A DNA stretch of 64,000 bases, from positions 1,071,501 through 1,135,500 of the forward strand of contig NC_020188.1 of NCBI RefSeq assembly GCF_000315915.1, in the 5' to 3' direction. The DNA is from Henningerozyma blattae CBS 6284. Lineage: Eukaryota; Ascomycota; Saccharomycetes; Saccharomycetales; Saccharomycetaceae. Every line of letters begins with the position of its first letter. Position 1 is the first letter of the stretch. The notes under the pieces are model-generated. The model made no database searches. It had not been told where the DNA came from and was given only the letters and a program-made list of their open reading frames with translations. Both the position numbers and the translations under genes were made by a program. Shown here piece by piece: positions 527 to 55,987 of the stretch.

Positions 527-1327
527 TCATTTATACCCCAAGGCACAGATGTCCAGACTGGACATCTGTTGCAGGAGATCGGAAATCCGGTCGTCCAATA
601 ACCCATTGGCATAATCATCTCTTGATTGTTGATCTAAATACTGTTGGATTTGTGCCAGCCTCGTGTACCCATCAGTACAGAATCTCATCTGGATCTTGAC
701 CAATGCTTCGAAACTAGGGTCGTAATATGGCACTCTTAATGAGATTAGTTGTGGCAATTCCAATTTTAATTGATCGTTCAAATTATCAAACACGTCTTTG
801 CATAGGGCCAATTCCTTTTCAGCCCTTGGCAATTTAGATGCATCTTTCGCAGGCTTCTCGATTAGTCGACGTACTTTAGCCTTGGATGCATCATAATCTT
901 GTTTCTTGTGGTCTCTTTTCTTTATAGCGTCGTCGATTTCTTTGAAATAACTCGAGAATTTAGTAACAGGGTCCAAGACAGTCTCTCTAAAGGGACCATC
1001 CAGTTGTTTAACTGTTTCAGAATCAAAATCCTGTACAGATTGTAAATAATAATTACCCACGTTACTGTTATTATTGGAATTGGCATATTTGGAATCATCA
1101 TATAGATTAGAAATTACTTCAGCAATGGTCACTTGTGAAGCAGTCACGGCTCTGATAGAATCCAAATACCCCTTAGCCTCCTTCTGTAATGAATCCCCGG
1201 CTTTTTGAAGAACTTTATAACGACGTTCCTCCATATTATATTCTTTATCAATAGTCTTGTCAACATTCTTGACAATGACACTATTACCTGCTCGGTTGAT
1301 AGCTTTTTTAAACCCTTCCCACGACAT
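527..1327 (-). CDS. RVS161: BAR-domain amphiphysin Rvs161
   Basis: A 266-aa protein, almost the length of S. cerevisiae Rvs161 (265 aa). It begins MSWEGFKKAINRAG and ends LDICALGYK, both diagnostic. The BAR domain fills nearly the whole chain, with long coiled-coil helices and the conserved stretch FDSETVKQLDGP. Rvs161 forms a crescent heterodimer with Rvs167 that bends and helps cut endocytic membrane tubules at cortical actin patches. It also acts in cell fusion with Fus2. There is no SH3 domain, which separates it from Rvs167. The start is the ATG at 1327; the in-frame GTG just upstream is not a plausible yeast start. An ACGCGT (MCB-like) word lies about 115 bp upstream. Confidence 0.96.
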   Translation of the reverse strand: MSWEGFKKAINRAGNSVIVKNVDKTIDKEYNMEERRYKVLQKAGDSLQKEAKGYLDSIRAVTASQVTIAEVISNLYDDSKYANSNNNSNVGNYYLQSVQDFDSETVKQLDGPFRETVLDPVTKFSSYFKEIDDAIKKRDHKKQDYDASKAKVRRLIEKPAKDASKLPRAEKELALCKDVFDNLNDQLKLELPQLISLRVPYYDPSFEALVKIQMRFCTDGYTRLAQIQQYLDQQSRDDYANGLLDDRISDLLQQMSSLDICALGYK

Positions 1328-2337
1328 CACGAATATTTATTGTTTAGTTTGCTTGCTTTATTAGGTGTGGTTAAATCTTTGTGAAATCTTGTGGAATCTT
1401 GTAGATATTATATTTATTTTTTTTTTTTTTTTATTTAAAAACGCGTAACAAGAATGCAATTTCTTTCTTTTTTATTTTCTTATTTCTTGTCGTTTTTTTT
1501 ATTTTTCAAACTTGTTTAGGAAATTTTGGAAATCGCCTAGGGGGAAACAATCCGATGACATTCGGATAACATACCCATCACACACCATCAAAAAGTCTAC
1601 ATTCTTTCCAAAACATATATATAAAAAAATGAAATACAATTCCTTAACTCTTATTCATTTACTAAAACAACTCTAAAACACTTTTCAAAATCTGGATTCA
1701 GATCTCATATTGCCTTTGAATTTTATTATAAGCTAAACTCTTTGTCATAGGAACTCCCTTCTAAAAGGGTAACGGCAAACGGATCTCAATCCTTCAAAAT
1801 TGTCTCGGAACAGTTTTCAGTTTGCCGAGGCATTAAATTTTTGAAACGGATTATACTGGGGAAGCTTCCCGGAAATGTCACAAAAAAATAAAACTGCCTT
1901 TATTACTTGCTGCCTTTGTTCTCGATTATTCAATGTTGGAAAATCGATATATGTTCAAATAAAGTATCATAAACTTGTTATTTTATTAAATAATACTACT
2001 ATAATTAGAGATATCAATACTTTTACGGATGATCGGAACTGCATTGCGTGAATAAATCATTGTTAAACTTTTTCTTCCTATGGATTTCCACAATTGAATT
2101 ATTCTTGTCTGTTTATTTGCTTGCTTGTATTTATCAATATCAATTTTAAGATTTTATATATATATATATATATATACATATATATATTAAAATGCTGTTA
2201 TGCTGTGGTCCTACTTAGAAAGCCTTAAAACATTACACGAACATAAATAATTTTTGAATGACGCTAACTAAACTACGATAAAGTTTAATTATGTATTAGA
2301 AGTACGTTATGAAAAAAAATTAATTTTTTTGATTTTT
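1328..2337. other. Intergenic, RVS161 promoter side
   Basis: No gene seen. The region holds an ACGCGT word at 1441-1446, homopolymer T runs near 1415-1500, a small inverted repeat TCCGA-N6-TCGGA at 1551-1566, and a TA dinucleotide tract near 2155-2190. The short open frames here have no recognisable protein. Confidence 0.7.
2155..2190. repeat. (TA)n microsatellite
   Basis: An imperfect run of TA dinucleotides interrupted by one CA. It lies between the promoter of RVS161 and the 3' side of the ATO-type transporter gene. Confidence 0.85.
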
Positions 2338-3210
2338 TTATACATGAGCATCATTACTTGGTAATGGTATGGATCCAAGAACAACGTATGAGTTATGTTT
2401 ATCCGTCAAACCTGCGAATGCATTATACCATGCTACAAAAGCCACTATTATACCCAATATACCTCCAGCCTGGGTTACTTTCTCCTTCCCAGTGAAGGAT
2501 CCAATGGATAATAATAGAAATGTATGACCTAATAAGAAAAATAACGTGAAAAACATCACTGTGGATTTCATTGTACACAATGCTAATCCATATGTAAATA
2601 TACACCAACCTAATAAATAAAATCCAATAGCATTCCCCAATTCCTTTTCATGACCTTCATATGCAGCTTGAATACCAAACCATGGTATATATAATGATGC
2701 AAAACTCATCCAAAACCCACCATATGAACATAATGCTGTACCACCGAATGTATTTTCCACCGCTATTTCCCAAATACCGGCAATGACTTGAACAATCCCA
2801 CCATAAAACATGGCTGGTCCAACAACTACATTGGGGATATGAATACCTTGTGCTTTGGCATTATATGCACACAATACAAACGTGGTTAATGCAAATGCAC
2901 ATAATCCTAATGGTGCTGGATTACCAAATCTATGAGCAGGTGGAGGTTGCCAACTTGGATTTAATGTACCCCCAAATGCATGAATTAATTCTTGTTTTAA
3001 AAATTTTTGATTACCAATGACGATAAATTCTTGATTATCACCAACGGTATATACTCGTTCTATCGTGGGCGGGCTATTACTAGTAGATTGTCTCAAATAA
3101 TGAGATGAATGATAACTAATATCTTCTCTATCTGTATCAGTATAAGTTTTTGGTGGTTCTTCAATTTTGTCACTCAATGAGGAATCTTCTAAACTTGATG
3201 CGTCTTCCAT
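2338..3210 (-). CDS. ATO/ADY2-type acetate or ammonium plasma-membrane transporter
   Basis: A 290-aa GPR1/FUN34/YaaH (AceTr) family protein. The family signature NPAPLGLCAFALTTF is at about residues 98-112. It is followed by about six hydrophobic membrane spans, including NTFGGTALCSYGGFW and a YLLGWCIFTYGLALCTMKST segment. The charged N-terminal tail (about 85 aa) is cytosolic in the family. S. cerevisiae Ady2 (Ato1) and Ato2 carry acetate and are linked to ammonia export under carbon limitation. The sequence resembles Ady2 closely, but I cannot tell Ady2 from Ato2 by eye, so no symbol is given. It has a long 1.6-kb upstream region, consistent with a regulated gene. The ATG at 3210 is the first in frame. 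Confidence 0.92.
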   Translation of the reverse strand: MEDASSLEDSSLSDKIEEPPKTYTDTDREDISYHSSHYLRQSTSNSPPTIERVYTVGDNQEFIVIGNQKFLKQELIHAFGGTLNPSWQPPPAHRFGNPAPLGLCAFALTTFVLCAYNAKAQGIHIPNVVVGPAMFYGGIVQVIAGIWEIAVENTFGGTALCSYGGFWMSFASLYIPWFGIQAAYEGHEKELGNAIGFYLLGWCIFTYGLALCTMKSTVMFFTLFFLLGHTFLLLSIGSFTGKEKVTQAGGILGIIVAFVAWYNAFAGLTDKHNSYVVLGSIPLPSNDAHV

Positions 3211-4843
3211 CTTGAAATAATTATATTAATATTATTTTATTGCTATTCAAATGCTATATCTCCTTAACTCAGAAATAAGACACACTATCTGTATGTTGAG
3301 ATGCCTTTAATGCTTTTTTATTTTTGTTGTTATAAAATTCTTATTGGATTATTATTGGGGTAAACTATACAAAGGTTAAATGCTTAACTAACAAATTATT
3401 ATTTCAATGCTATTATCCCTAGAGTAATACTATACTGATGATCCTAGAAATTTTCAAGAAGCAATTAGGTTTTACTTGAGACATTGAAGGTAGGCACCAC
3501 AAATAGTTACAAAAAAAGAGATTTTTGTTTACTTTCATCTGGTATGTTGACCGCCAATCGGATATACAACTTAATGCTAGAGATTAATTTAGATGTTCAA
3601 TTCTAATCAAAATTTCCCCCAGGCTAAAATTTGAAAGGGGAGTTCCTGTTTTTTTTTATTTTTACTTTACCAATTATTAAACCTAAATCCAATTGTTTGT
3701 CAATTAAAAGGTTTTACTATTGGGTAAACCTCATCATTATACAGAAGCAGTAATCAACATTTAGATATCTGGGTTTCATAAGAAAATTGATCGTCGACTA
3801 TAATGCTTATTACCCTAAAGTTTGTCGTAGCACCCATCTTGTCCGTAGGTAAATAGCACTGATTCGACAGTATAAACATGTACCTAATTTCAATGTGCCT
3901 TTACCAATATGGAGATATTTGGGCTCCAGTTTTAATAGAATATCATATCCCACTTTATTTGCCTAAAACAATAAGCTTATCTTTAATATTATCAACCAGT
4001 ACAATTTGATAAAACCCTTCAAGCCAGCTTTTCTAGATAACTTTACCAAGGATGCGATGGCTTAACCCAGGTTTCCAACATTGTTACAGGAAAATATAGG
4101 AATCGGGCTTGACGGATTCCGAAAATATCTACGGCAAATAAAGACTTTTTAACTAGCAACCACCGATGATGAAGTTCGGTTGTATGGGAGACGGAAACTT
4201 ATGAGCCGGCTGCTTTTAATCTGGGACTAAAAGGGAAATTCTACGCGATTGAAAAAAATTGGAAACACTAAAGACTCGCATGAATGGAAATGCCAAGTTA
4301 TATCCGTCGGAGCTAACCTAATTCTAGGTCTAACTGCATTGTGCTAAGAATTTAATATTTTGCTGGACAAAGAAGAATACAGTTTCCGAAGATTACCCAG
4401 CTGAAATACTGTAAGTGACAAATGAAATGGTATTCGGTTGGTAACTATACTGTAGAAGTTATTAACCGATGTCGAAGAGACAATGCCAAGAATTCGAATT
4501 GCAGTAATAGTTTTGGAAAAGTAATCTTGTAAAAATGTAAATCCAAACAAAATTCGTGAACGTCTAAAGTTTAGAGACTCTAAAAAGAATTCTTATATAT
4601 TCAGTTCTATTTCTATTATTAGATAAGAATATCAAATAATTGAAAAAGAAACGCACTCAAAATATAGGAACCTATTAATAAGTATACAAATTTTTTTTGA
4701 ATTGTAATATTATAGAACAAACAGGAAAAGTTCCTACTGAGAAATCGTCAGAAACTGCTTTGACATTTATAAGTTAACATTAGTTATTTTTTTTTTTTTA
4801 AATTTTATTCTTAATTTTTTATTTTATTCTGTAAAAGGCACAA
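3211..4843. other. Long intergenic, upstream of ATO-type gene
   Basis: About 1.6 kb without a credible gene. It would include the transporter promoter (minus strand) and the 3' flank of ADP1. One CCAAT word occurs near 3555. The stretch 3780-4330 is less AT-rich than typical spacer but has stops in all frames and no recognisable domain. I see no tRNA or LTR termini. Confidence 0.6.
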
Positions 4844-7800
4844 CTATTTTTGTTCAACAACAATAAACTTCAATCCTAGGTAACCCAAAATCAAAAATAT
4901 TACATTGAAAAGAGAAAGTATTTTGATATCGAAGTATAAGTTTTGCACAATAAAACCGAATGTACTTAAAATTGTAGCACCCGGAACTTCAATATTCAAT
5001 CCATATTTCTTTTCCTTCAAGATCAATGTTTTGACTTCATTGATTAATAAGGATTCATATGCATAATAAAATATGGAAATATTCTTGAAATATTTGAGTG
5101 CAAAATTAGTAATTTCTTGTGTATTAATAAACAACCCACTAAATAGTAATGATCCCAACAATACAAGCACACTTAAAATGATAGAGCTGTTTAAATCTTT
5201 CACCACAATACCAATTGTCAAAATCTGTAAAGCAATGGCTGTATTGAAGGATATTAAAATTAAAATACATTTAAAAAAGGCATGGCTTCTCATATTCAAT
5301 CCAACCATTGGATAGATAACAACTGATAATAAAATAGGAGGGAAAACTCTCAAAGGTATAATTTCGCTTAATATTTTACTAATATAGTAAGCAATTGGCG
5401 AGTAATAGTTATTAGAACGTTCCTTAATGAAAATATTTCTCTCTTGAGCAAAAGAACTCAATCCTGTAAATGTAATAAAACCAAAATAGGTTAATATGAA
5501 AAAGAATAACCCCATTCTATTTTGAAACCCACTAATATTGTTTGCAACGTCATAATAAAGAGTCCCTAGGAATATACTTAATAAAATTGTCAGAATATAA
5601 TTAGCCAATAATAATTTTGGATTTCTATAAACATTCTTAAACGTTCTAGAGCATAAGATTAATAATTGTTGTAAAAAAGATGCCCCTCTTTGTAAATCTG
5701 GAATCTCAAACGATAAGGTGGATGTTGAATTTGAATTACTTGAATTTGGTACTTGATTAACAACTTCGGAAATTTCTTGATTCAAATCCATGAAATATGC
5801 ACCTTCTTTAAATCTTGTATGTAATAATTGCGTATTAACTTTCCCAATGGAAATTCCACGTTTACGATTACCAATTTTTGATTGCTGTTGTATATTTGCT
5901 GAATCATTAGCCGTGTTTTCATTGGTGAGTAAATGGCTTAATTCATCTCTATGGCCTGCAAAATGTTCCCATTCTAATTGTGTTTGAGTTCGTTTAAATC
6001 TATTGATATCATCACCGAAGTTGATACCAGTGTTTAATGGAAATGATGTGCTTGAACCTGAACTTTCATTTAATCCTTCTTCCAAATCTCTATGAGGGAA
6101 ATCAACTGATTTGATTTCTTTATCAAATGTTAAATCTATTAGATAATCAGCAATGTTATAATCAGTTGGACATCTATAACCATTTGTTTTTAAAAATTCT
6201 CCTACTCTACGAATTTCACCAGAATAAACCATCTCACCTGAGCTTAGTAATACTAATTTACTAAATAAATGGAAAATATTAGATCTTGGCTGATGAATAG
6301 TCAATACTAATGTTCTATTATAATTTTTTGCCAATCTTACTAAACATTCAACCACGTTATTTGCGTTATTTGAATCTAAACCTGAAGTTGGTTCATCAAG
6401 GAATAAAATCAATGGAGATGTTACTAATTCGCATGCAATGGAAACACGTCTCTTTTCACCACCACTAATCCCTCTTTCAAAATCATCACCGATGAGTCTA
6501 TCTTTAATATTATAAATTCTTAATTCCTCTAGGACTTGGAAAACTCTTTGTTGCTTTTGATAAAAAGTCATTGAATTTGGTAATCGTAATAATGCACTAT
6601 TTAAAACTGCTTCATACACTGTTAAGGTGGGGAAAAGGAAATCATCTTGGTCTACAAACCCAATCATTTTAGAGATAATCTCCCTTGAAACATTCTTACC
6701 ATTAATTTTAATATCACCTGAAACATGACCTGATTTTCTCTTAAATGCTAAAATATCTAAAAGAGTAGTCTTACCTGCACCTGAGCCACCCAGAATAGCC
6801 ATGATTTCACCTGGTTTTACAATACCCGAAACATTCTTTAATATATCTCTTTCTGAATTATTATCAGAGATGGATGGTACATTATAAGAAATATTTTCAA
6901 AGGATAATGCTGCTACATGTTTTGAAGTTAAGAAATCATCATCTCGTCCTTGAATGGATGTATCAGCTACGGCTGTAAGACCAAATATAGTTGTAATAAC
7001 TTGTGTTAGTTTATTAGTAAATGATTGAGTAGTAGTTCCATTTAAACCGGCGTGTGCAACGTCTTCATTTGAATAATACATATCATCATCCTCATCATCT
7101 GATAAATGTATAGAAGAAGTCTTAAACAAGGGAGAGTTTGCGATGTATAATACTAATAAAGTTGCACAAGTTAATACAGCTAGAGCAGTTAAAGTTAGGA
7201 TAATAGTTTCACTCCAAGTCATCTTTTCACGATCAGTTGGACTCTTATAACCTGGTATTTCACTAAAATGTAAACATTCACCTGATTGACAATTCAAAGT
7301 GATATAAGGATCACCGAATATTGTTAAAATCAAATCATTCATTGAAGGTTCCGTGAATTGACAATCATGAGTATTTAAATCACACGTAAAATCACCTGGA
7401 CCTTTAATTGTTTCTGTTAAAAATTCTGAAATATCAATAGAACCATTTTTCCCACAAAGCATTGTACCTGGGACACATTTACATTTTGCATTTTCACAAT
7501 TATAATGAGTTGTATTTTTATTTAAATCGTACTCAAAGGTACATGCATCTAATCCACAATAAAAACTTTCAATCTCATCTATCCAAAATTGGAAATTGCA
7601 TTCTTGCTTTTTTTTATCGCAAGAAAATGATATTTGTGGTAATTTACCATTTAATATTTCAATAATTTTTTCATTAGTGACATTACAACCTTCAAAGACT
7701 CTATTAACAATCATCCCATTTCTATAACATGTACCTTTGATCGATGAATCCGGCATAAATGAATCACATACAGAATCCATCTCACAAATATTACAATTAA

Positions 7801-14242: not shown

Positions 14243-15725
14243 ATATGCTTTCGTTAAACTTTAAAATAAAAGTCATAAGACACTTCATACTTTTGAACTT
14301 AGCTAAACCAGTATTAGTTTTTTGTTTTTCACTGAAGCTGGAGTACTACTTGTACTTACAATACGTCTACAACAAACTTTTGATGGTTGTTAAAAAGAAG
14401 ATTATGTACATAGTATATAGTCACCGTTACTAGTAACTAGCTTCTCGTATTTACTTTATAGGAATAGTTGGTCAATTTTAATTTCAGTTTTGAAATTCAG
14501 AATTTATTAATAGTGACAAAGTAAATAAATAACAAAGAATAATTAAATATGAAGTATTATTTTAGCACCATATTTTCTTATGTTTAAGTCTTAGTAGTTT
14601 ATGTTAACATTATTCCATATACTTCAAAAATTCAATTCAGAGAAAAAGGTTTTGAATAATACTAATCTTTTAGAAAACTTGAGCGATTTTACTCTCGCTT
14701 GTAAAATACTTGTTGGCATATATATAAGATATAATTATATAAACTTACTGAACCTTTATTTATTCAAACAGATATTTTGATTGTACTGGGATTCAAGAGA
14801 GTTAGACATTGTTATACAGTGTTTAAGATGTAAAGACGATTACTTTATTTAGAAATATATAGTAAATACTATAACTAAAATGAATATATTTCTTAAATAG
14901 TGTTTTTCGATATAATAAGAAAAACACATTTTAAATAATAAGTCACGTGATAAAAGTCTTTTACCACTTAATAGAAAATGATATAATCATATTCCAGCAG
15001 ATTGTTTTCAAAACTGTATTAAAACAGACTGCTTTCTTGATTTTCAATATAGTCAGCACAAAGTGAAATAGTCTATTAATGAGGTAAAAAAGAAACTAAC
15101 AATTTAAAGTTCGATTTCAACTTCAAACTAGAAAATAAGAAGGAAAAATAGTAACTCTTTGTTTTACAATAGTATATTGCATACTATTGTGGAGATTGAC
15201 AGGATTACAGGAAAATATCAAATAAAACTATTACATAATTAATTGACCTTTTTGATTCTTGTTTGTATTATCAGTACTATTCGCTACAGTAATTTAATAT
15301 CATTTTCAATCTGGAAGTATTTCTCACTGAAAAGAGACGCTTCTTTTTGGTTCTCATCGAAATTTCTTATACCAACTTTTACATAGAGAAAAAGAAAAAT
15401 GATCAACATAAGTGTGTTGTAAAGTACACTGCATGCAACTAATAGTTCATTAAAATATCTAAAATATTTTTTTTAAGAACTAAGCAATTGAAGTAAATAA
15501 AATAAAATTTGTATTGAATGCAATACTGGAGTCTGCTTTTAATATGGATATATAAATTTTATAAATAATAATTGTACATAAAATATAAGGTTTCTATCAT
15601 CTGTTGAAAAAGGAAAAGAAAAGAATAATAATCAGAGGCAAGAGGAGAATAATGCATAAAATAATTCAAATAATGAAGTAAAATATTGTAGTAACCTATT
15701 CACTTTTTTGACGATTATTTTTAAA
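14243..15725. other. Long AT-rich intergenic
   Basis: About 1.5 kb with no gene supported. It holds a GTCACGTGA (CDEI/Cbf1-type) word at about 14942, poly-T/A runs and short open frames without identity. No CDEIII-like TTCCGAA element lies within 200 bp of that word, so I do not call a centromere. Confidence 0.6.
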
Positions 15726-47432: not shown

Positions 47433-49118
47433 ATGAATAATCATAATTCAAATAAAAACGATGCTTCGATGCAGCTCGAAGATCAAAATTTCACCTCTAG
47501 TGATAATCAAAATACAAAAGAGAATAATGAAAGTGATTTTCAATTTAAGAAAGTTAAGACATCAAAATTACATGGCATACCCACATTAGGGGAGCGTTTA
47601 GCTGAAGCCCAGAACGTTGTAAATGCAAGAAAAATGGAAAATTTCGATTCTACTCTTGATGCAGAAAGATTATCATCCCAACCCATAAGCAATATGCAAA
47701 GTAATCCCGTTTTTTCACAATCATATCAATTACCAAGTTCTCAGCATATTCCACTATCAAGCTCTCAACAACCGATTCATATTTCGAATTCACAACCAAT
47801 TCCTCTAACTTTACCTAATACCCAACCATTTCAAGTATCAAATACACAGCCTGTTTTCTTATATTATCCTACACAGTCGTATCAAAATGCTGCGAACATT
47901 GCTACCCCAATTAACCAGGCTAGTACAGCGGTTGCACAAGCTGTACAAACTACAACCAACAACAACAACAACAATAATAATGCTCAAGAACATCATCCTC
48001 AACTAATGCCTGCACCAATGGTATATTCCTATGCTAACACAAACATGAATGTGGACACAGATAATAGAAATAATAATATTCCCATACAGTCTCAAAATCA
48101 ACTTAGAAACTTCCGGAAAATCGAGAGAATACCTCAAAACAACTATAACCATGCAGGAATATCTTCTCCTCATAAAGATATTCCAACTAATGAATTCTAT
48201 AAATATGTTAATACTAATAATAATACCAATAATATGAATACTATTAGTAAAAATGGAATAGAAAATACAGAACAGGATATTAATTCAGAAGCATTATTAA
48301 GAAAAAAACTATTCATTTGGTGCTTAATACGCTGTTCCAAAAAATATAAGATAAAAAAACTAAAAAACAAGAAAAATGCCATAAATTCAAAAGTATTTTC
48401 AATTCTAAAAGAATTTGTTAAGAAGGTACGTTTACCACCACCTTCTTCAACAGTGGATGATACATCTATTAATATTGATTGGAAGCTTGACTCTATTAAA
48501 GAAAGAGAATCCAGAAACTTTGACGGAAGTACTGATTCTGATCTGGATGCCGATAAATCGTTTAACGAAGTATTTGGTGATACTACAATTGATGAATCAT
48601 TGGCTCAAAAAATTTCATCGATACAACCTACTGCAGCAAACTCTAAATTTAATGCTGAAAATTATACAACTTTATCAGCCAACATAGTACCGAATAAAAG
48701 AAATTTCAGTAATAGAAAACAATTAGAATTCTTGAGTAGTAAGATTGAATATTTGAATAAAGAACTTAATGAGTGGACCAACTTTCTAAAGCCTGATAAT
48801 TTCAATAAAATTATAAATGTTTATTCAACAAAAGATTTCAAGATAAATAAAAGGGACAATGAAAGGGTTTATCTACGACAACAGGAAGAAATTAAATTCA
48901 ACGAAAGTGTACTAAACATTAAGCAGAAATTTAATAGCTTTGAAAAGGAATCAGTCCAATTAAATAAATTTTCAAAATTACTGGATAAAATAACAAAGTA
49001 TAAAATAGAGCTGATAAATGATAGAGTAATATTAGAAAATCATAAGAAGTTTATCACTAGGAATAATCAAGTCAATAGTAAAAAATTATTGCAAGTAATA
49101 GCAAATATAGCTATTTAG
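47433..49118 (+). CDS. DSN1: Kinetochore MIND-complex subunit Dsn1
   Basis: A 561-aa protein (S. cerevisiae Dsn1 is 576). It belongs to the Mtw1 (MIND) complex that links inner kinetochore proteins to Ndc80. The sequence is poorly conserved overall, but two diagnostic islands remain: GIPTLGERLAEAQNV (about 48-62; S. cerevisiae has GFPTLGERL) and ISSPHKDIPTNEFY (about 243-256; the S. cerevisiae counterpart has SPHKDIP). Between them is a Gln/Asn/Pro/Ser-rich region. The C-terminal half has helical coiled-coil segments, including LSSKIEYLNKELNEWTNFL. MSL1, its S. cerevisiae neighbour, is elsewhere in this window. STS1 and SQT1 (YIR011C and YIR012W) follow after other genes. Confidence 0.88.
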   Translation: MNNHNSNKNDASMQLEDQNFTSSDNQNTKENNESDFQFKKVKTSKLHGIPTLGERLAEAQNVVNARKMENFDSTLDAERLSSQPISNMQSNPVFSQSYQLPSSQHIPLSSSQQPIHISNSQPIPLTLPNTQPFQVSNTQPVFLYYPTQSYQNAANIATPINQASTAVAQAVQTTTNNNNNNNNAQEHHPQLMPAPMVYSYANTNMNVDTDNRNNNIPIQSQNQLRNFRKIERIPQNNYNHAGISSPHKDIPTNEFYKYVNTNNNTNNMNTISKNGIENTEQDINSEALLRKKLFIWCLIRCSKKYKIKKLKNKKNAINSKVFSILKEFVKKVRLPPPSSTVDDTSINIDWKLDSIKERESRNFDGSTDSDLDADKSFNEVFGDTTIDESLAQKISSIQPTAANSKFNAENYTTLSANIVPNKRNFSNRKQLEFLSSKIEYLNKELNEWTNFLKPDNFNKIINVYSTKDFKINKRDNERVYLRQQEEIKFNESVLNIKQKFNSFEKESVQLNKFSKLLDKITKYKIELINDRVILENHKKFITRNNQVNSKKLLQVIANIAI

Positions 49119-49311: not shown

Positions 49312-49923
49312 TTATTTTAATAGGTATTTCTGCGCCAAGTCTTTAACTTTTTTATCAAAAACTTCACTATTTATTGCTTGATCCATCTTATAAAAAGGAT
49401 TCATCAATGTTTTGATAAATAATTCATGAACACCAATATAAAAAGATTTTAATTGAGCGTTATCCGGAGGAGTTGTGTGATGTACAGTTATCAATCTAGC
49501 GCCTTGATAAGTTACATATGCAGTGACCTGTGATCCATAAAAGTGATCCACGCAGCCTAGAAACAGATTATCCGGTCCATTAGCTCCTCCAGAATTGTTA
49601 CTATTTGAATTATTGCTAGCATTACCACGGAGGAGTAATGCACCAAAACCCTGTGATGTATTGCTGTTAGCGGCTGCTCCGCCACCCCATTCAGTATCTG
49701 ATACTATATCTAAAGCAGCATGTGCGATGAACGGTGACATATTTAAAGGATCATTTAAAAGGTTCCCAGAAGTAGTCCCACTGCTAGCTATACTGAGATT
49801 ATTTAGATTGGCACCGTTGGAACTGGTATTGGTGTTACTATTTTCGATATCGATAGGTGAGCCTAGATGTACTTCATACAAAGGAGTGTCATTGTGCCCT
49901 ATTATAACAAAATATGTTGACAT
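49312..49923 (-). CDS. TRS20: TRAPP subunit Trs20 (sedlin)
   Basis: A 203-aa protein (S. cerevisiae Trs20 is 175). It is a core subunit of the TRAPP tethering complexes in ER-Golgi and Golgi traffic and the ortholog of human sedlin. Conserved parts: the N-terminal longin-fold strand MSTYFVIIGHNDTPLYEV, FIAHAALDIVSDTEW, LGCVDHFYGSQVTAYVTYQG, and HELFIKTLMNPFYKMD near the C-terminus. The extra length comes from two Asn/Ser/Gly-rich insertions (about 26-55 and 95-117). It is syntenic with the YBR254C-YBR256C group. Confidence 0.95.
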   Translation of the reverse strand: MSTYFVIIGHNDTPLYEVHLGSPIDIENSNTNTSSNGANLNNLSIASSGTTSGNLLNDPLNMSPFIAHAALDIVSDTEWGGGAAANSNTSQGFGALLLRGNASNNSNSNNSGGANGPDNLFLGCVDHFYGSQVTAYVTYQGARLITVHHTTPPDNAQLKSFYIGVHELFIKTLMNPFYKMDQAINSEVFDKKVKDLAQKYLLK

Positions 49924-50380
49924 CCTTTTTATTTTTTTTATTTTTTTTTTACGCCTCAGATATTTATATGTACTTTATATTATTGAATAATATTGTTCCT
50001 TCGAAAAGTATTGCTTAATTTACCTATTTTTCTTTGATATAGGCTATATTAACAGATAAATTGAAACGAATGTTTCTTTGATTTTTCAGACTTCGGAATA
50101 ACAGTGAATTGAAATTTCAAGGGTTTAAAGGTTTAATAATTAGGGTAATATGTATATATAGCTAATTGAAATTTCACGAAAAAACATGAAAATTCCATCA
50201 AATTGTTGCTATCTAATTTAATAAACCAGGAAGAATACTTGTCATAATAGACTGATCTTATGACAGCTGACATGGTTTCAACTACTGCCTTTTTTTGAGT
50301 CTTGAATAAAACTTGAACGTTTATAGAAATTTTGTAAGGATTTTTATATTCTAGTAAATTGAAACGATAGTTTTTAAGCT
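49924..50380. other. Spacer between TRS20 and the pol-derived ORF
   Basis: Divergent spacer of about 460 bp. Two copies of AAATTGAAACGA (near 50058 and 50355) and two of AATTGAAATTTCA (near 50109 and 50164) occur. I found no TGTT...AACA LTR ends, no primer-binding site and no TACTAAC branch point. Confidence 0.55.
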
Positions 50381-52392
50381 ATGAACTTTGAGAATTTCAG
50401 AAATAGTCATCCTAATGTTAATTTGAATACTGATTTGAGAATTACAAACTTGGGACTGCCTAATAGTAACACAAACAATCTACTAAATACAGCATTATTG
50501 AGAAATGAAGACAATTCAAATTTCACCACAAATATTAATTTGAGTGATAATGAGATTGAAGAAGAAAATGAATGGTACAATGGTACAAAGGATAGAAGAG
50601 GCCCAGTAACCCCTCACGATGGATAGTTTATTCCACATCCTTGTGCGAACAATCAATATTGGGATGGCCAGGGATACAGAACTTTACATCATTATGGAAC
50701 TACTATCCACGTCCCAATAAAAATTACCATTCTATTAAGAATGCAGAAGCTCTGAAGAATGAGATTGTACCAACTAAATCTTCTGAAGAGGGTAGTGTCG
50801 AAGCTTCTCTACGTGGACCAAAGGCTAGTAAGTGGAGACAAATTTGCCAAGAAGAAATAAATGCATATACAAATACTGATTCGTTCGACCTTGTACTACC
50901 TCCATCTTCTCAACCTGTATTCGATTCATCTTGGAAGGTTGAGCAACGCGAAGTGGCTAGACATGGTGATAATGTAATGATGACGAACATTGCAAAGTTG
51001 CATGTGAAAGATACCTCCAAAGATACTACTTACATTCGCCCCTTTTCAACTAAGTTTGATTATGACTTATTTCGTTCATTTTTAGCTCTTTCTGCTAAGT
51101 TAGGGTTTCATATCAATCACTTACAATTTACTGACCCATGCCATGATGCAGTGCTCAGAAGTACTGATGAAATTTATGTGAAACAGCCCCCATTATTCAA
51201 TTCCTCTACATACCCAAACCATGTTTGGAAATTGAAGAAGCCAATTCCTGGATTAAGGATTATTCCATTACGTTGGGCTGAAACAATAAAAGAAACTTTA
51301 ATTTATCTTGGGTTTAAAGAAGCAACTGCTACAAGATTTTTTTTCAAGCACATTCCCAATGACATTATACTTGCATTTCCATATGGTGAAAATGTATTAT
51401 TTGCTTCGTCAGAAACTAGTATCCTAACTGAACTAAAGAAGAAGTTAAAAAAACGTTTTTCTTATAAAGATCAAGGCGAATTAAAAAAAATCTTTGATTT
51501 AAATATTATGAACAAGCCTAAACACTATATTTCAATCACATGTGATGATTATGTGAGCACTTTAATTGAACATTTCGATATGACTGTTGAAAAACCAATT
51601 TTAAAACCATTGCCATCAAAATTTGATTTTACTGATAATTCTTCACCATATTTAGAAAAAAATACTGAATACCATATTGTACTAGGTTATTTAACACATA
51701 TCTCAGATATCGCTCGACCTGATATCTTAAGTTATGTTAATTTACTATCAAAATATGCGAAAAAGCCTCGTGCAATTCATTTTAATGCAACTCTTCAATT
51801 GTTAGGGTACGTTTTTACAACGAGAAACTTATCAATTAGATATACATATAAATCTCCGGATACAATTAAATTATACAGTAGTGGTTCTGAAATTTTAGCT
51901 CTAAATAAAACGTCGTTCACTTACAGTAATATGATACTTTTAGGAGACTCACCAATATCTTGGTATTCCAAACAAATTTCGGTCTTTAAATGTACATCAT
52001 TGCCTGATGCTGAAATATTTGCTGCTGGTGTGGCTGTAAGGGAAGTTGACTGGCTAGATTATTTGATAGAGGAAATAAATTATCACTCATTAGGATTGAT
52101 GAAAAAGGTGTCCATTATGACAAACAAACCTGAACTGAGATTTAAGGAGAGCAATTCTTACGAGACATTTTCATATAAAGTAAAAGTACGTTACGCGATT
52201 GTTCAAGAGGCACTAATACTTAAAACTATTATATTAATTAATATTCCGGATTCAGAACATATCGCAAAAATACTGACAGACGTTATTCCTTACAAAAAAT
52301 TTTTAACTTTACGTAAAAAGATCTTGGTAAAGGATAGCCAAAACAGGCCATTGTATTTCATGGAGGATTTGAGTTCCGAAGGCCTTAATTAA
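50381..52392 (+). pseudogene. Ty1/copia pol-derived coding region, catalytically dead, one frame break
   Basis: An 81-codon Asn-rich ORF (50381-50626) overlaps, in another frame, a 583-codon frame that opens at 50596 and ends at 52392. The large frame follows copia pol: WRQICQEEINAYTNTDSFDLV, then DEIYVKQPPLF and WKLKKPIPGLRIIPLRW in the RT, an RNase H part with SPISWYSKQISVFKCTSLPDAEIFAAG, and the pol-end pattern IPDSEHIAKILTDVIPYKKF. RT aspartates are lost: the QLDV position reads QFTD and the YVDD position PYGE. The RNase H SDA motif reads SSG. Gag, protease, integrase and LTRs are absent. The long open frame argues for retention as a host gene, while the frame break argues for decay. The first in-frame ATG of the large frame is at 50977. 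Confidence 0.75.
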
Positions 52393-52683
52393 TATACTCA
52401 TTCTTCTCCTTTATTTGTGTAGGTCTTTAGCAACTGTATTGGAGTTGACTACTTTATTTAGTTTACTAGGAAATGGCGCATAGCTGACAGTAAAAATTAT
52501 ATTTTATTTAATCGTTATTTTATTCATTTTTCACTTCAACGGGGTTATAACAATAATCTCTTGGATAAAAAATAAGGGCGTTAGTTAAAAAATGTTAAAA
52601 ACTTCTCATTGTAGAAGGGATGCAAACAAAAAAATAGAAAAAAAAGCAATTTTCTCAAGATTAATGTTTACAATATTTCAACT
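52393..52683. other. RCF3 upstream region
   Basis: 291 bp of AT-rich DNA. Nothing seen beyond A-rich leader sequence before the RCF3 start. Confidence 0.5.
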
Positions 52684-53077
52684 ATGAATATTGGACATCA
52701 ATCTACCTCTGAAAAGAAGAGGCTAAGAAAATCTTTAAATTTTGAAGTATGTATGATTCTCAAAATATTTCTACACAATTTTTTTTTACTAACATTTAAG
52801 CATCCTCTAAATCAAAAAATCAAAAAAATCAAAAATGATTATTATTGCTATTTTCTTTCAGTTAACAATTGCATGCTTAGTAGGCACAATGAAAGGTGGG
52901 CTATGTAGTTCCACTGCACATTACATTTTGAAGAAATACTCCCGAAACTTTCGTAAACTAAATATTCCTATATTAGTTATGTTCCATGGTTCATTTATGA
53001 TATTAGGTATGTACTTCGAAGCTGAAAATCAATTGCAATCCTTCAAAGTAAACCAGTTAAGGTTAAGAAATGAATGA
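52684..53077 (+). CDS. RCF3: Respiratory-supercomplex factor Rcf3, spliced gene
   Basis: Exon 1 is 52684-52746 (21 codons, ending NFE). The intron is 52747-52861, with GTATGT donor, TACTAAC at 52787-52793 and CAG acceptor. Exon 2 is 52862-53077. The phase is 0 and the product is 92 aa. The pattern LTIACLVGTMKGGL (about 22-35) and VMFHGSFMILGMYFEAENQL (about 66-85), two short hydrophobic hairpin segments followed by a basic tail, matches S. cerevisiae Rcf3 (YBR255C-A) as I remember it; that gene also has an intron. Rcf3 is a HIG1-like inner-membrane protein that associates with cytochrome c oxidase. It neighbours MTC4, as in S. cerevisiae, but the pair is inverted relative to TRS20. Confidence 0.82.
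52747..52861 (+). other. RCF3 spliceosomal intron
   Basis: A 115-nt intron: 5' GTATGT, branch TACTAAC, 3' TTTCAG. The AAG at 52798-52800 lies only about 8 nt past the branch adenosine and is too close to be used. No other AG occurs before the CAG at 52861. Confidence 0.88.
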
Positions 53078-53218
53078 GTGGTGAAGCGTTCTTAACATCA
53101 GCGTTTGGCTTAATTTCTTTACACTTTAAGACAAGCATTATTTAATATGGAACAGAAATTATAATCTATTTATCATATATTTAATGATTTAAAGTACATA
53201 AACTTAGGTTAAAGGGAG

Positions 53219-53835
53219 TCACCATAATAACCATTTAATTAATTCCAGTATATTTCCACAGTACTTCAAGATGTGAACAAGGAACCAGACTGTCCATAAG
53301 AAGCCTATTATGATAATCTCTAATATTTTGTAAAATAACTTCCAAATTCTCTGGCCTTGTAATAACTTTTCATTATAATACCTTTCATTCCTCTCTTGAT
53401 AGAGTTTCAACTTCAAAGTCAAGGAAGTATTGATATCGGTCAATATTCTATCAGTAGCAGCTAATAAATTTTCAACTTTCACAATATTTTGATTTATCCA
53501 GCCTGTAGTCCAATCATTTGCATTCACGATAACCTGAGTTAATTTTTGGTTATATTTGTTAATCACAGCGTAAGTATCATCTATAAACCCATCAATGTTT
53601 TGATCAATATGATATTTATTTCTCTTTTGTAACTTTTTTCTCTTCAAAGAATTAAACGCAACTCTTCTGTGATTCATGACATATAGAGTAGCTGATATAT
53701 TTCGAAGTTGTCTCCAATTATTAACTAAATCAGCATCGATCTCATATTTAGCAATTGGCAATTCATCATCATTATTAGTTTGTGAAACGCTACTATATTC
53801 TGAAGCGGATATATAGTCACGGGAAGAATGGGCTG

Positions 53836-53866
<31 letters not shown>

Positions 53867-55987
53867 AGCTGCGTGAATTGCACGGAATGATGTTGACTGT
53901 GGTGGAGTTAAATAGTCGTTATCTGTTTTTCTAGTAGCCTTGTAATTTTTAAAAATTGGAGACGCAGCATATGTTCTACTTGTCAAAGTACGGTCCATTG
54001 AAGCAATTAGATTTATGTTTTTTATCTTTTTTATCTTTTTTATCTTTTTTATCTTTTTTATCTTTTTTATCCTTCTTATGCTTCTTTTTATCTTTCTTGT
54101 CTTTCTCTTTCTCCCTTTTTTTTTCTTTTTTGTCTTGGATTTACTACTTAAATGATCATGAATGTTATTATTAGTTTTAGTATTTATTATAGGTGGTGTG
54201 GTAGCAATAGAATTAGTAGTGTCTTTTATTGTGTTGCTTTTACTCATATTCATTGATTTAGAATTTTTTGAAGCCTTTTTAAACAACTTTTCTAATTTTT
54301 TAAAATCTTGAGAATTCAAACTGTTGGAGTTACTATTATCAATACTAGTGGTACTATTATTAAGTGACTTTGGATCTTTTGTTTTTGAGTTTGGGGGACT
54401 TAACAAAGCCTTATCTTCTATTTTATTTTTATTTTTTTTGGAATTTAAAAGTCTTGCTTGTTTAGTACTTCCTGAGATATTTGTGGCTACAGAAGGATAC
54501 CTATAGTTGTTACCCCTGGTACTTACTGTACTTGGTGTAATACTTTCATTTGGGCTTATAGTTGTATCAAAACTTCTGGCTGTATCATCAATTGTGAGAT
54601 TGTCGGCAAAACCAGAAGCATTATTAACAGAAAGATTTGTTGGAATTAAACCTATATGGGTGGATAAATTATCTTCCTCTAAGAGAAGCCCTTCAGGCAA
54701 TGCAGAAAGATCATTGGAGGCTATTGGAGAAGATAATTCAAATACAGGCGGTAATCTATCATTTAAAGCTTTTCTCTCTCTTTTATTTTGAGCAGAGTTA
54801 GTTGAGTCTTCAACATTAATAATTGGAGTAGAAGTTGAATTTGTTTTTCCAGATTCTATACTGAATGTTGTTGTGGTGGCATCATCTCTTGGTAGTAGAG
54901 TGCTACTATTTTCTTGAGGTTCGCCATTTACATTACTATTGGGTGCTAGTGTAGTTGGCGTAATTTGCATAGTGTTTGTACCATTAGAAGTAGGAGTGGA
55001 AAATTCAAAATTATTGAACATATTTTTCTTGTTCATTGTAAACCACGGCTTATATAAGGGATCTAGCAATTCATCCCAATGGCTAGATCTCCATAACAAC
55101 TCAGATGATTTCTCATTTATGTCTACAAACCAATAGTTGTCCTGTTGTTCTTGTGACTTACTATATTGATTTTGTTTGGAGAATTCCAAGATTGGAATCA
55201 TTGGTGGATTCTTAAAGAAGATGGACATGGGTAAATCTGCACGATCTCTCTTTCTCAATCTTCGGTCTCTGATAATTTGTAAAGGATTGTAAACCCCTTC
55301 GACATGGGGATGGGAAATGATCTGTGCAGATGTTGATGCAGATCTCGATAAAGTTCTAGTCAGAGGATTGTTATTACGAGTTTGTTCAGTATCAGATTCA
55401 TGGGAATTTATAAATATTTCCATTAACGAATAATAATATTCTAAGTAAGTTCTAATACTGTTCGCTCTTTTCTTTGTCTGTAAAAGACGATCTCTTTCTT
55501 TATTGAGCAGTTTCTTACGAAGAGAACCACCATCAAGAGAAAAATGTTTATCCAAGTTTAAGCTGTCATCAAGCTTTTCAATTTGGCCATGAATCCCCTG
55601 TTCTCTATTTCTTTCTGAAGTGAAAGAATCCAAATTTAAATCGTTCATGAGGCCATACTTTCCATCCATCAATAATTCAACCATTAATTTAATCCGCTCC
55701 TGTGATGGCTCATCCTTCTTTGCATTATTATAATCTTGAGTCCGCCGTAATTTATCATCCCAACTCACCACACTATGAACTTCTTTCTTCCTTTGTTTTT
55801 TTTGTTGTGGTGCTGGCTCGTAAGAGTAGCCATCATTGGTAATTTCCAGATCTATATCAGAAGAATTTGGGCTATCAGAATCCTCCATATAGCCAGCATC
55901 TTCCTGATTCGATGAAAAGTTCATCTCATTTGCTCGTCTCTCTAATAATATCCCTCCATCATAAACTGTTGGCAAATTAGTTGTCAT
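53219..55987 (-). CDS. MTC4: Mtc4-like protein (large, C-terminal membrane anchor)
   Basis: A 922-aa protein. The assignment rests mainly on position: in S. cerevisiae MTC4 (YBR255W, about 694 aa) lies between TRS20 and RCF3/RIB5. Visible: an acidic N-terminus, a conserved-looking basic and helical region (about 60-300, for example VVSWDDKLRRTQDY and RKRDRADLPMSIFFKNPP), a long Asn/Ser/Thr-rich middle, a Lys-Ile-Lys repeat near 620-680, an Ala run (about 703-718), a second conserved helical region, and a C-terminal hydrophobic segment (IIIIGFLWTVWFLVHIL) suited to tail anchoring. MTC4 of S. cerevisiae is known from a genetic interaction with cdc13-1. Its biochemical function is unknown to me. 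Confidence 0.65.
53839..53872. repeat. GCT/GCA triplet run encoding poly-Ala in MTC4
   Basis: On the plus strand a near-pure GCTGCTGCT run; on the coding strand it gives about 13 consecutive alanines followed by Arg-Ala-Ala. It lies within a variable region of the protein. Confidence 0.85.
54012..54072. repeat. 9-bp tandem repeat encoding Lys-Lys-Ile in MTC4
   Basis: TTTTTTATC (coding strand GATAAAAAA) repeats about six times, giving Lys-Ile-Lys periodicity. This Lys-rich stretch adjoins a further basic stretch (KKKKKGRKRKTRKIKR). The unit length keeps the frame whatever the copy number. Confidence 0.9.

Follow-up and report, generated by a model that had tools for sequence, protein, structure and literature searches.

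An open frame derived from the pol region of a copia retrotransposon is located between TRS20 and an intron-bearing RCF3-like gene in the yeast Henningerozyma (Tetrapisispora) blattae CBS 6284, and we consider it likely that this frame is a host gene, which has been selected as a non-enzymatic reverse transcriptase-ribonuclease H (RT-RNase H) protein and for which the role of a protein-binding scaffold is favored. The frame lies in a 64,000-nucleotide stretch of contig C4 (the window, to which the positions below refer unless another contig is named), and it was analyzed together with the whole genome (14.04 Mb, 10 contigs). In the proposed history, a copia element of the Ty5/Tkp5-like type would have died as an enzyme, and host selection would have gone on for the folded RT-RNase H protein. 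With less certainty, the protein may have a non-catalytic role in which the RT-connection-RNase H shell serves as a scaffold for binding other proteins. Domestication is proposed because the pol-derived open reading frame (ORF) is present in a single copy, no long terminal repeat (LTR) was found, the frame is open, all of its catalytic carboxylates are replaced, and its core is kept beyond neutral expectation.

The frame is open over the whole RT-RNase H region

A first-pass annotation, made from the letters of the window, had described a copia RT-RNase H frame open for nearly 600 codons, and this description held, as the frame has 598 codons and matches the Pfam family RVT_2 over residues 97–338 with an E-value of 1.6e-26, with no other credible Pfam match. 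In dinucleotide-matched random sequence the mean number of stops per 598 codons was 42.7 (500 draws), and a fully open frame was obtained in 0 of 2000 draws. The form present in the protein database starts at the first in-frame ATG (Table 1), but a start at this position would cut the fingers of the RT. Sequence searches of solved structures returned no credible relative, the one match being a ParB chain with an E-value of 0.036.

The catalytic carboxylates are replaced and the packing core is kept

To describe the losses, conserved columns were defined as those at least 85% conserved among 121 relatives (n = 91). The pol-derived ORF keeps 39 of these columns, replaces 50, and has gaps in two, while by the same measure each of the 121 relatives keeps at least 76%. 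None of the seven columns that we take, from general knowledge, to be the catalytic carboxylates of RT and RNase H keeps its residue; the replacement is itself acidic in two cases (D to E265, E to D471). The loss of the RT aspartates had been noted before and is correct for motif A and motif C (Table 1), although the sequence given earlier for motif C, PYGE, was one residue out of register. The earlier statement that the first RNase H aspartate is gone was also right, since the SDA aspartate is S429, and the losses extend to D471, to T509 in the DN motif (now TN), to K558 in place of the ADxxTK aspartate, and to A534 in place of a histidine. The change to T509 was taken from the tblastn alignment; this column is gapped in the MAFFT alignment.

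The losses are unevenly distributed. In the RT, conserved columns are kept at 5/8 positions of the N-terminal fingers, 4/15 of the RLVA-APV stretch, 3/12 of motif A, 6/10 of the GLKQ region, and 4/10 of motif C and thumb, while the connection keeps all nine, and the two RNase H regions keep 6/14 and 2/9. Within the RT the catalytic and adjacent polar motifs have fared worst, and the best-kept parts are the connection and, in RNase H, the hydrophobic core. Apolar conserved positions are kept more often than polar ones (29/54 vs. 10/35; Fisher p 0.028), which is a weak difference that we do not lean on.

The frame has probably been kept by selection

To obtain a neutral expectation, relatives were back-translated with host codon usage and then drifted; the simulation used substitutions only, concerned one sequence, and belonged to one neutral-model family. 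In the matched runs, in which drift from relative P0010 lost as many conserved residues as the pol-derived ORF has lost (370 runs, three mutation models), 20–24 stops were expected and never fewer than 10 appeared, as compared to none in the pol-derived ORF. The earlier argument that neutral decay should leave many stops was thus sustained, and simulations from four different ancestors gave the same picture. Conserved tryptophans and tyrosines are kept at 10 of 12 positions, as compared to neutral means near 5, and this value was never reached in the 370 runs. Hydrophobic positions are kept at 109 of 124, as compared to neutral means of 93–95 and a maximum of 109. Relative to the near-complete relatives P0006, P0007, and P0010, the ORF has 10, 10, and 11 insertions or deletions, all of which keep the frame, as must be the case in an open frame.

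The dead relatives in the same genome behave differently. The nearest of these, the four copies that we call family A, all contain stops: their RT-RNase H pieces, which are 41–56% identical to P0006, have 4, 3, 3, and 1 stops, an additional inverted piece of one copy has two, and frame changes are present in three of the four copies. The pol-derived ORF, at 28.6% identity to P0006, has no stop over 503 aligned columns. As judged by simulation on one sequence, the frame was kept by selection after the element had lost its function.

The pol-derived ORF is a single copy without signs of mobility

No second copy of the pol-derived ORF was found in the H. blattae genome. The absence of a nearby LTR, which had been noted from the letters, was confirmed insofar as the flanks (49940–50760 and 52393–53250) match only themselves in the genome and have no direct repeat above 11 bases in common, the one of that length being mostly T; a strongly diverged LTR might escape these comparisons. 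The same is true for gag, protease, and integrase, because eight pieces of the copia families A, B, and C gave no credible match near the ORF at E-values up to 1; the sole match, of 27 residues at 54225 (E 0.16), is at chance level. The ORF therefore resembles a domesticated retroelement gene, which is expected to be single-copy and free of mobility signals, and it lacks the LTRs, the catalytic RT and RNase H residues, and the gag, protease, and integrase expected of an active Ty5/Tkp5-type element.

The pol-derived ORF most likely descends from a Ty5/Tkp5-like element

The H. blattae genome contains at least 24 RVT_2 matches. The pol-derived ORF is about 27–29% identical to three family A copies, and to the copy on contig C2 in short pieces of 23–31%; families B (C6:869k) and C (C2:1272k) are more distant. 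The relatives of family A include Vanderwaltozyma polyspora proteins named Tkp5, which we treat as Ty5 type by name. In a tree of 40 rows the ORF grouped with 16 Ty5/Tkp5-like rows with a support of 100/100; the length of its end branch was 4.24, about nine times the median of 0.45. In three approximately unbiased tests, its pairing with the long branches of family C (p 0.325) or family B (p 0.07) stayed compatible with the data. The BLAST score was 214 bits for the Ty5-like P0006, as compared to tblastn scores of 75 bits for family B and 46 bits for family C, and the identity to the top BLAST rows was about 27–33%. These comparisons suggest that the ORF most likely descends from a copia element of the Ty5/Tkp5-like type.

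Two family A copies are located at contig starts (G000:C6:1-3000 and C8:2800-6100), one is 19 kb from the start of C2, and one is internal. Ty5-type elements target silent chromatin, and the position of the relics at contig starts is as expected from this preference. Family C is represented at G000:C2:1268000-1277900 (L039) by two overlapping open frames, 307–1509 (401 codons) and 1391–5815 (1475 codons, pol), of which the former appears gag-like, judged by its position, and the element looks recently active; related pieces are present at other loci (L042, L043, and L044). In the last of these (G000:C1:30000-39900), remnants at 1137–3267, adjoining the family C pieces, resemble by eye a gypsy/Ty3-type pol (PFGLCN...YPDD). 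A lone 220-codon RNase H-like frame in G000:C1:2233000-2242900 (L041, 5355–6014), with the motifs TDAS, SEAE, and TDSKP, was examined as a second candidate; its motifs look intact, no RT precedes them within that frame, and Pfam gave no match.

No ortholog was detected

A shared-word search of about 5.77 billion proteins with the whole ORF detected no ortholog among the 7999 candidates scored, and returned only the ORF itself and a plant copia protein at 25% identity. A search with dense words over residues 203–308 returned nothing but the ORF itself (101 candidates). Such searches need shared 5-residue words and may therefore overlook a distant ortholog, which by our estimate means one with less than about 50% identity. 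According to the NCBI taxonomy, the genus Henningerozyma contains one species.

The protein probably began in an upstream frame

Ahead of the pol-derived frame there is an asparagine-rich ORF (ORF1, Table 1). The trace of codon scores follows the frame of ORF1 from 50381, changes to the pol frame at about 50600, and stays in it as far as about 52100. The score of ORF1 (0.232) is within the range of 23 host genes, each left out in turn (0.072–0.48), while wrong frames of host genes score at most −0.015. An ORF such as ORF1 is present in 0.6% of random flanks. None of 5000 random draws was open over the 127 codons without ATG at 50596–50976, a segment that contains the RT finger residues W80, E87, and W113. 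The coding signal in ORF1 together with this open segment suggests that a longer protein, ORF1 followed by pol, was probably encoded, and that the full protein probably began in ORF1. No homolog of ORF1 besides itself was detected among the 32 loci compared, and Pfam gave nothing credible.

Several ways of joining the two frames were considered. An intron is not indicated, as neither GTATGT nor a CTAAC branch site is present in 49930–51100, and the only GTAAGT (50828) is inside the RT homology. The Ty1-type frameshift is a +1 frameshift, and it is inapplicable here because pol is in the −1 frame. A strict X-XXY-YYZ slippery site does not occur in the overlap, and the one upstream, at 50518, is located where the pol frame has stops. 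The predicted RNA fold at the junction was not unusual (z 0.63). An 8-base tandem duplication (50572–50587) is present just ahead of the frame change, but it is not the lone cause of the change, because a stop in the pol frame follows the duplication. The options that remain are an assembly error, which is only a possibility, an unrecognized frameshift, a non-ATG start, and recent damage. The accessible text on KAT1 of Kluyveromyces lactis, a domesticated yeast transposon gene, describes a programmed −1 frameshift (PMC5499181), and therefore the frameshift option is worth testing.

The locus and its neighbors

The features of the locus are collected in Table 1. The RCF3-like gene contains a spliceosomal intron with GTATGT at 52747 and TACTAAC at 52787. 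At 47433–49118 there is a 561-aa ORF with a Pfam MIS13 match (E 5.8e-12), by name a member of the Dsn1/Mis13 kinetochore family. On the minus strand at 14779–14832, 36 kb from the pol-derived ORF, 18 residues are 83% identical to the start of the 401-codon frame of family C (E 8e-4) and are perhaps a scrap of such an element.

Table 1. Positions of the pol-derived ORF, its parts, and its neighbors in the window
Feature	Position	Strand	Remark
TRS20, upstream neighbor	49312..49923	-	Sedlin_N match
ORF1, 81-codon ATG ORF, Asn-rich	50381..50626	+	Other frame (pol frame is -1 to it); overlaps pol frame by 31 nt
Copia-type RT + connection + RNase H open frame	50596..52392	+	598 codons plus stop; no internal stop
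471-aa ORF from first in-frame ATG	50977..52392	+	Form in protein database; without first ~55 residues of RT homology
RT fingers-palm-thumb, residues 72-345	50809..51630	+	Approximate borders
Q177 in place of the RT motif A aspartate	51124..51126	+	D in 100% of 121 aligned rows
YGEN (residues 263-266) in place of YVDD in RT motif C	51382..51393	+	Both aspartates lost
Connection region, residues 346-420	51631..51855	+	Conserved columns kept 9/9
RNase H-fold domain, residues 421-577	51856..52326	+	Hydrophobic columns kept 30/30
RCF3-like gene, downstream neighbor	52684..53077	+	Name from first-pass annotation; end judged by eye

Possible roles and alternative explanations

The proposal of the first-pass annotation that the ORF is a domesticated protein with lost catalysis finds good support in the decay test, in the difference from the family A relics, in the retention of the core, and in the presence of a single copy with no LTR found. 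On the other hand, the simple gene structure that it assumed does not hold, as the 5′ end changes frame. Given domestication, the scaffold role fits best, because what is kept is the packing core together with the connection and the shell of RNase H, and what is lost is the chemistry along with a large share of the conserved polar surface; even so, we would give this role slightly less than an even chance. In such a role the protein would resemble the p51 subunit of HIV-1 RT and the RT-like core of Prp8, which are structural. On the same assumption, a dominant-negative block of Ty elements is somewhat unlikely, and RNA binding through a basic surface is ranked after both. The RNA binding that had been suggested earlier has no special support, because motif A and the RLVA-APV stretch are kept worst within the RT, but the protein is basic, with an isoelectric point of 9.1, as compared to 5.5 and 7.4 in two relatives.

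Several observations weigh against a domesticated scaffold. The basic isoelectric point would also suit the binding of nucleic acids, and a recent loss of function is compatible with the data. Purifying selection is read from a single sequence, because no ortholog turned up, in a genus with one species. The 5′ end is not that of a clean gene, with no in-frame ATG of the pol frame before 50977 and a frame change near 50596–50626 that has neither intron signals, nor a strict slippery site in the overlap, nor a stable fold. The codon score of the pol frame (0.112) is near the low end of the host genes, 2 of 23 of which score lower, and it fades over the last 300 bases. The structure predicted from the sequence alone has a pLDDT (predicted local distance difference test score) of 36, the good model depends on aligned relatives in which the motifs are kept, and the Foldseek TM-scores (template modeling scores) of the model against the 50 RTs listed are only 0.28–0.46.

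A restriction factor would share the domestication and differ in the job, so that its probability overlaps with that of the favored explanation. In this case the dead RT-RNase H would join or displace the live RT of Ty elements and block reverse transcription, as a pol-based counterpart of DRT2. There is a precedent in DRT2, which the accessible text describes as a Ty gene that was domesticated in yeast and works as a restriction factor (PMC10951436), the genome contains at least 24 RVT_2 matches, with stops in all four family A copies found, and the rapid divergence of the ORF would suit an arms race. However, according to the same text DRT2 works through Gag and not pol (PMC10951436), the low identity to the nearest relatives makes hetero-assembly doubtful, and the open gag-like and pol frames of family C show that such restriction is not general. 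As a whole, we regard this explanation as unlikely.

It is improbable that the ORF is an old relic whose frame stayed open by chance, or that it is a host gene which was functional until recently and is newly dead at its 5′ end. The lack of an early in-frame ATG, the failure of ORF1 and the pol frame to join, and the duplication beside the junction would fit such a fate, but luck is a very unlikely cause under both the matched simulations and the dinucleotide-random sequence, and recent death, which fits the data, still requires a long functional phase after catalysis was lost. There is a similarly small chance that the dead RT-RNase H is an important or defensive host protein, with the two frames joined by a −1 frameshift and with the role of a p51-like scaffold or a restriction factor.

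A changed enzyme, in which new acidic positions took over from the old active sites, is very improbable; D180 is near motif A and two of the seven catalytic positions are still acidic, but five are not, and conserved lysines are kept at 0/5 and conserved glutamines at 1/5 positions. The idea that the ORF belongs to a mobile copia element, either divergent or non-autonomous, deserves hardly any weight in spite of its copia origin and of another copia family with long open frames in the genome, because no LTR, repeated flank, second copy, or piece of gag, protease, or integrase was found beside it, and a pol without its catalytic residues is hardly conceivable in a working element.

Comparison with known systems

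The favored host protein can be compared with several known systems. The Ty5/Tkp5-like copia elements (V. polyspora Tkp5, P0017, and P0030, and H. blattae family A) have the same RT-connection-RNase H order and belong to the same clade in the best tree, but the pol-derived ORF differs from them in that all its catalytic carboxylates are replaced and no gag, protease, integrase, or LTR was found. A search of the literature, limited to its best matches and with most subscription journals outside its reach, found no yeast gene described as a retained, catalytically dead RT-RNase H of copia origin. The closest case is DRT2 of Saccharomyces cerevisiae, described in the accessible text as a domesticated Ty1′ GAG and a restriction factor with tested activity (PMC10951436). 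It is likewise a truncated yeast copia fragment kept at a fixed place as a host ORF, but it derives from the capsid C-terminal domain of Gag, while the pol-derived ORF is a strongly diverged RT-RNase H with a putative function.

The rvt genes of fungi, bacteria, and rotifers are domesticated RTs which, according to the accessible part of their description, need intact catalytic residues (PMC10680173); they are also single-copy, RT-derived host genes under selection, but the residues intact in rvt are replaced here. KAT1, as far as its accessible text goes, is a domesticated yeast transposon gene with the −1 frameshift that a joined ORF1-pol reading would need, but it is a catalytically active hAT transposase (PMC5499181), and no strict slippery site was found in the overlap studied here. 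The Cbp1 family of fission yeasts comprises domesticated pogo transposases, some of them described in the accessible text as having degenerate catalytic residues in a conserved gene (PMC10085805); the pol-derived ORF is similar in its domestication and degenerate catalysis, but it is not a pogo transposase, and orthologs are known for Cbp1.

Hence, within what these sources describe, the known yeast Ty domestication (DRT2) came from gag, and the known domesticated RTs (rvt) need catalysis. If the explanation favored here is true, a whole RT-connection-RNase H retained solely for its fold would mean that a dead, structural RT, comparable to p51 and Prp8, had arisen independently. As the host is an ordinary yeast, a block of Ty elements and a role in a host complex could be told apart by deletion and expression.
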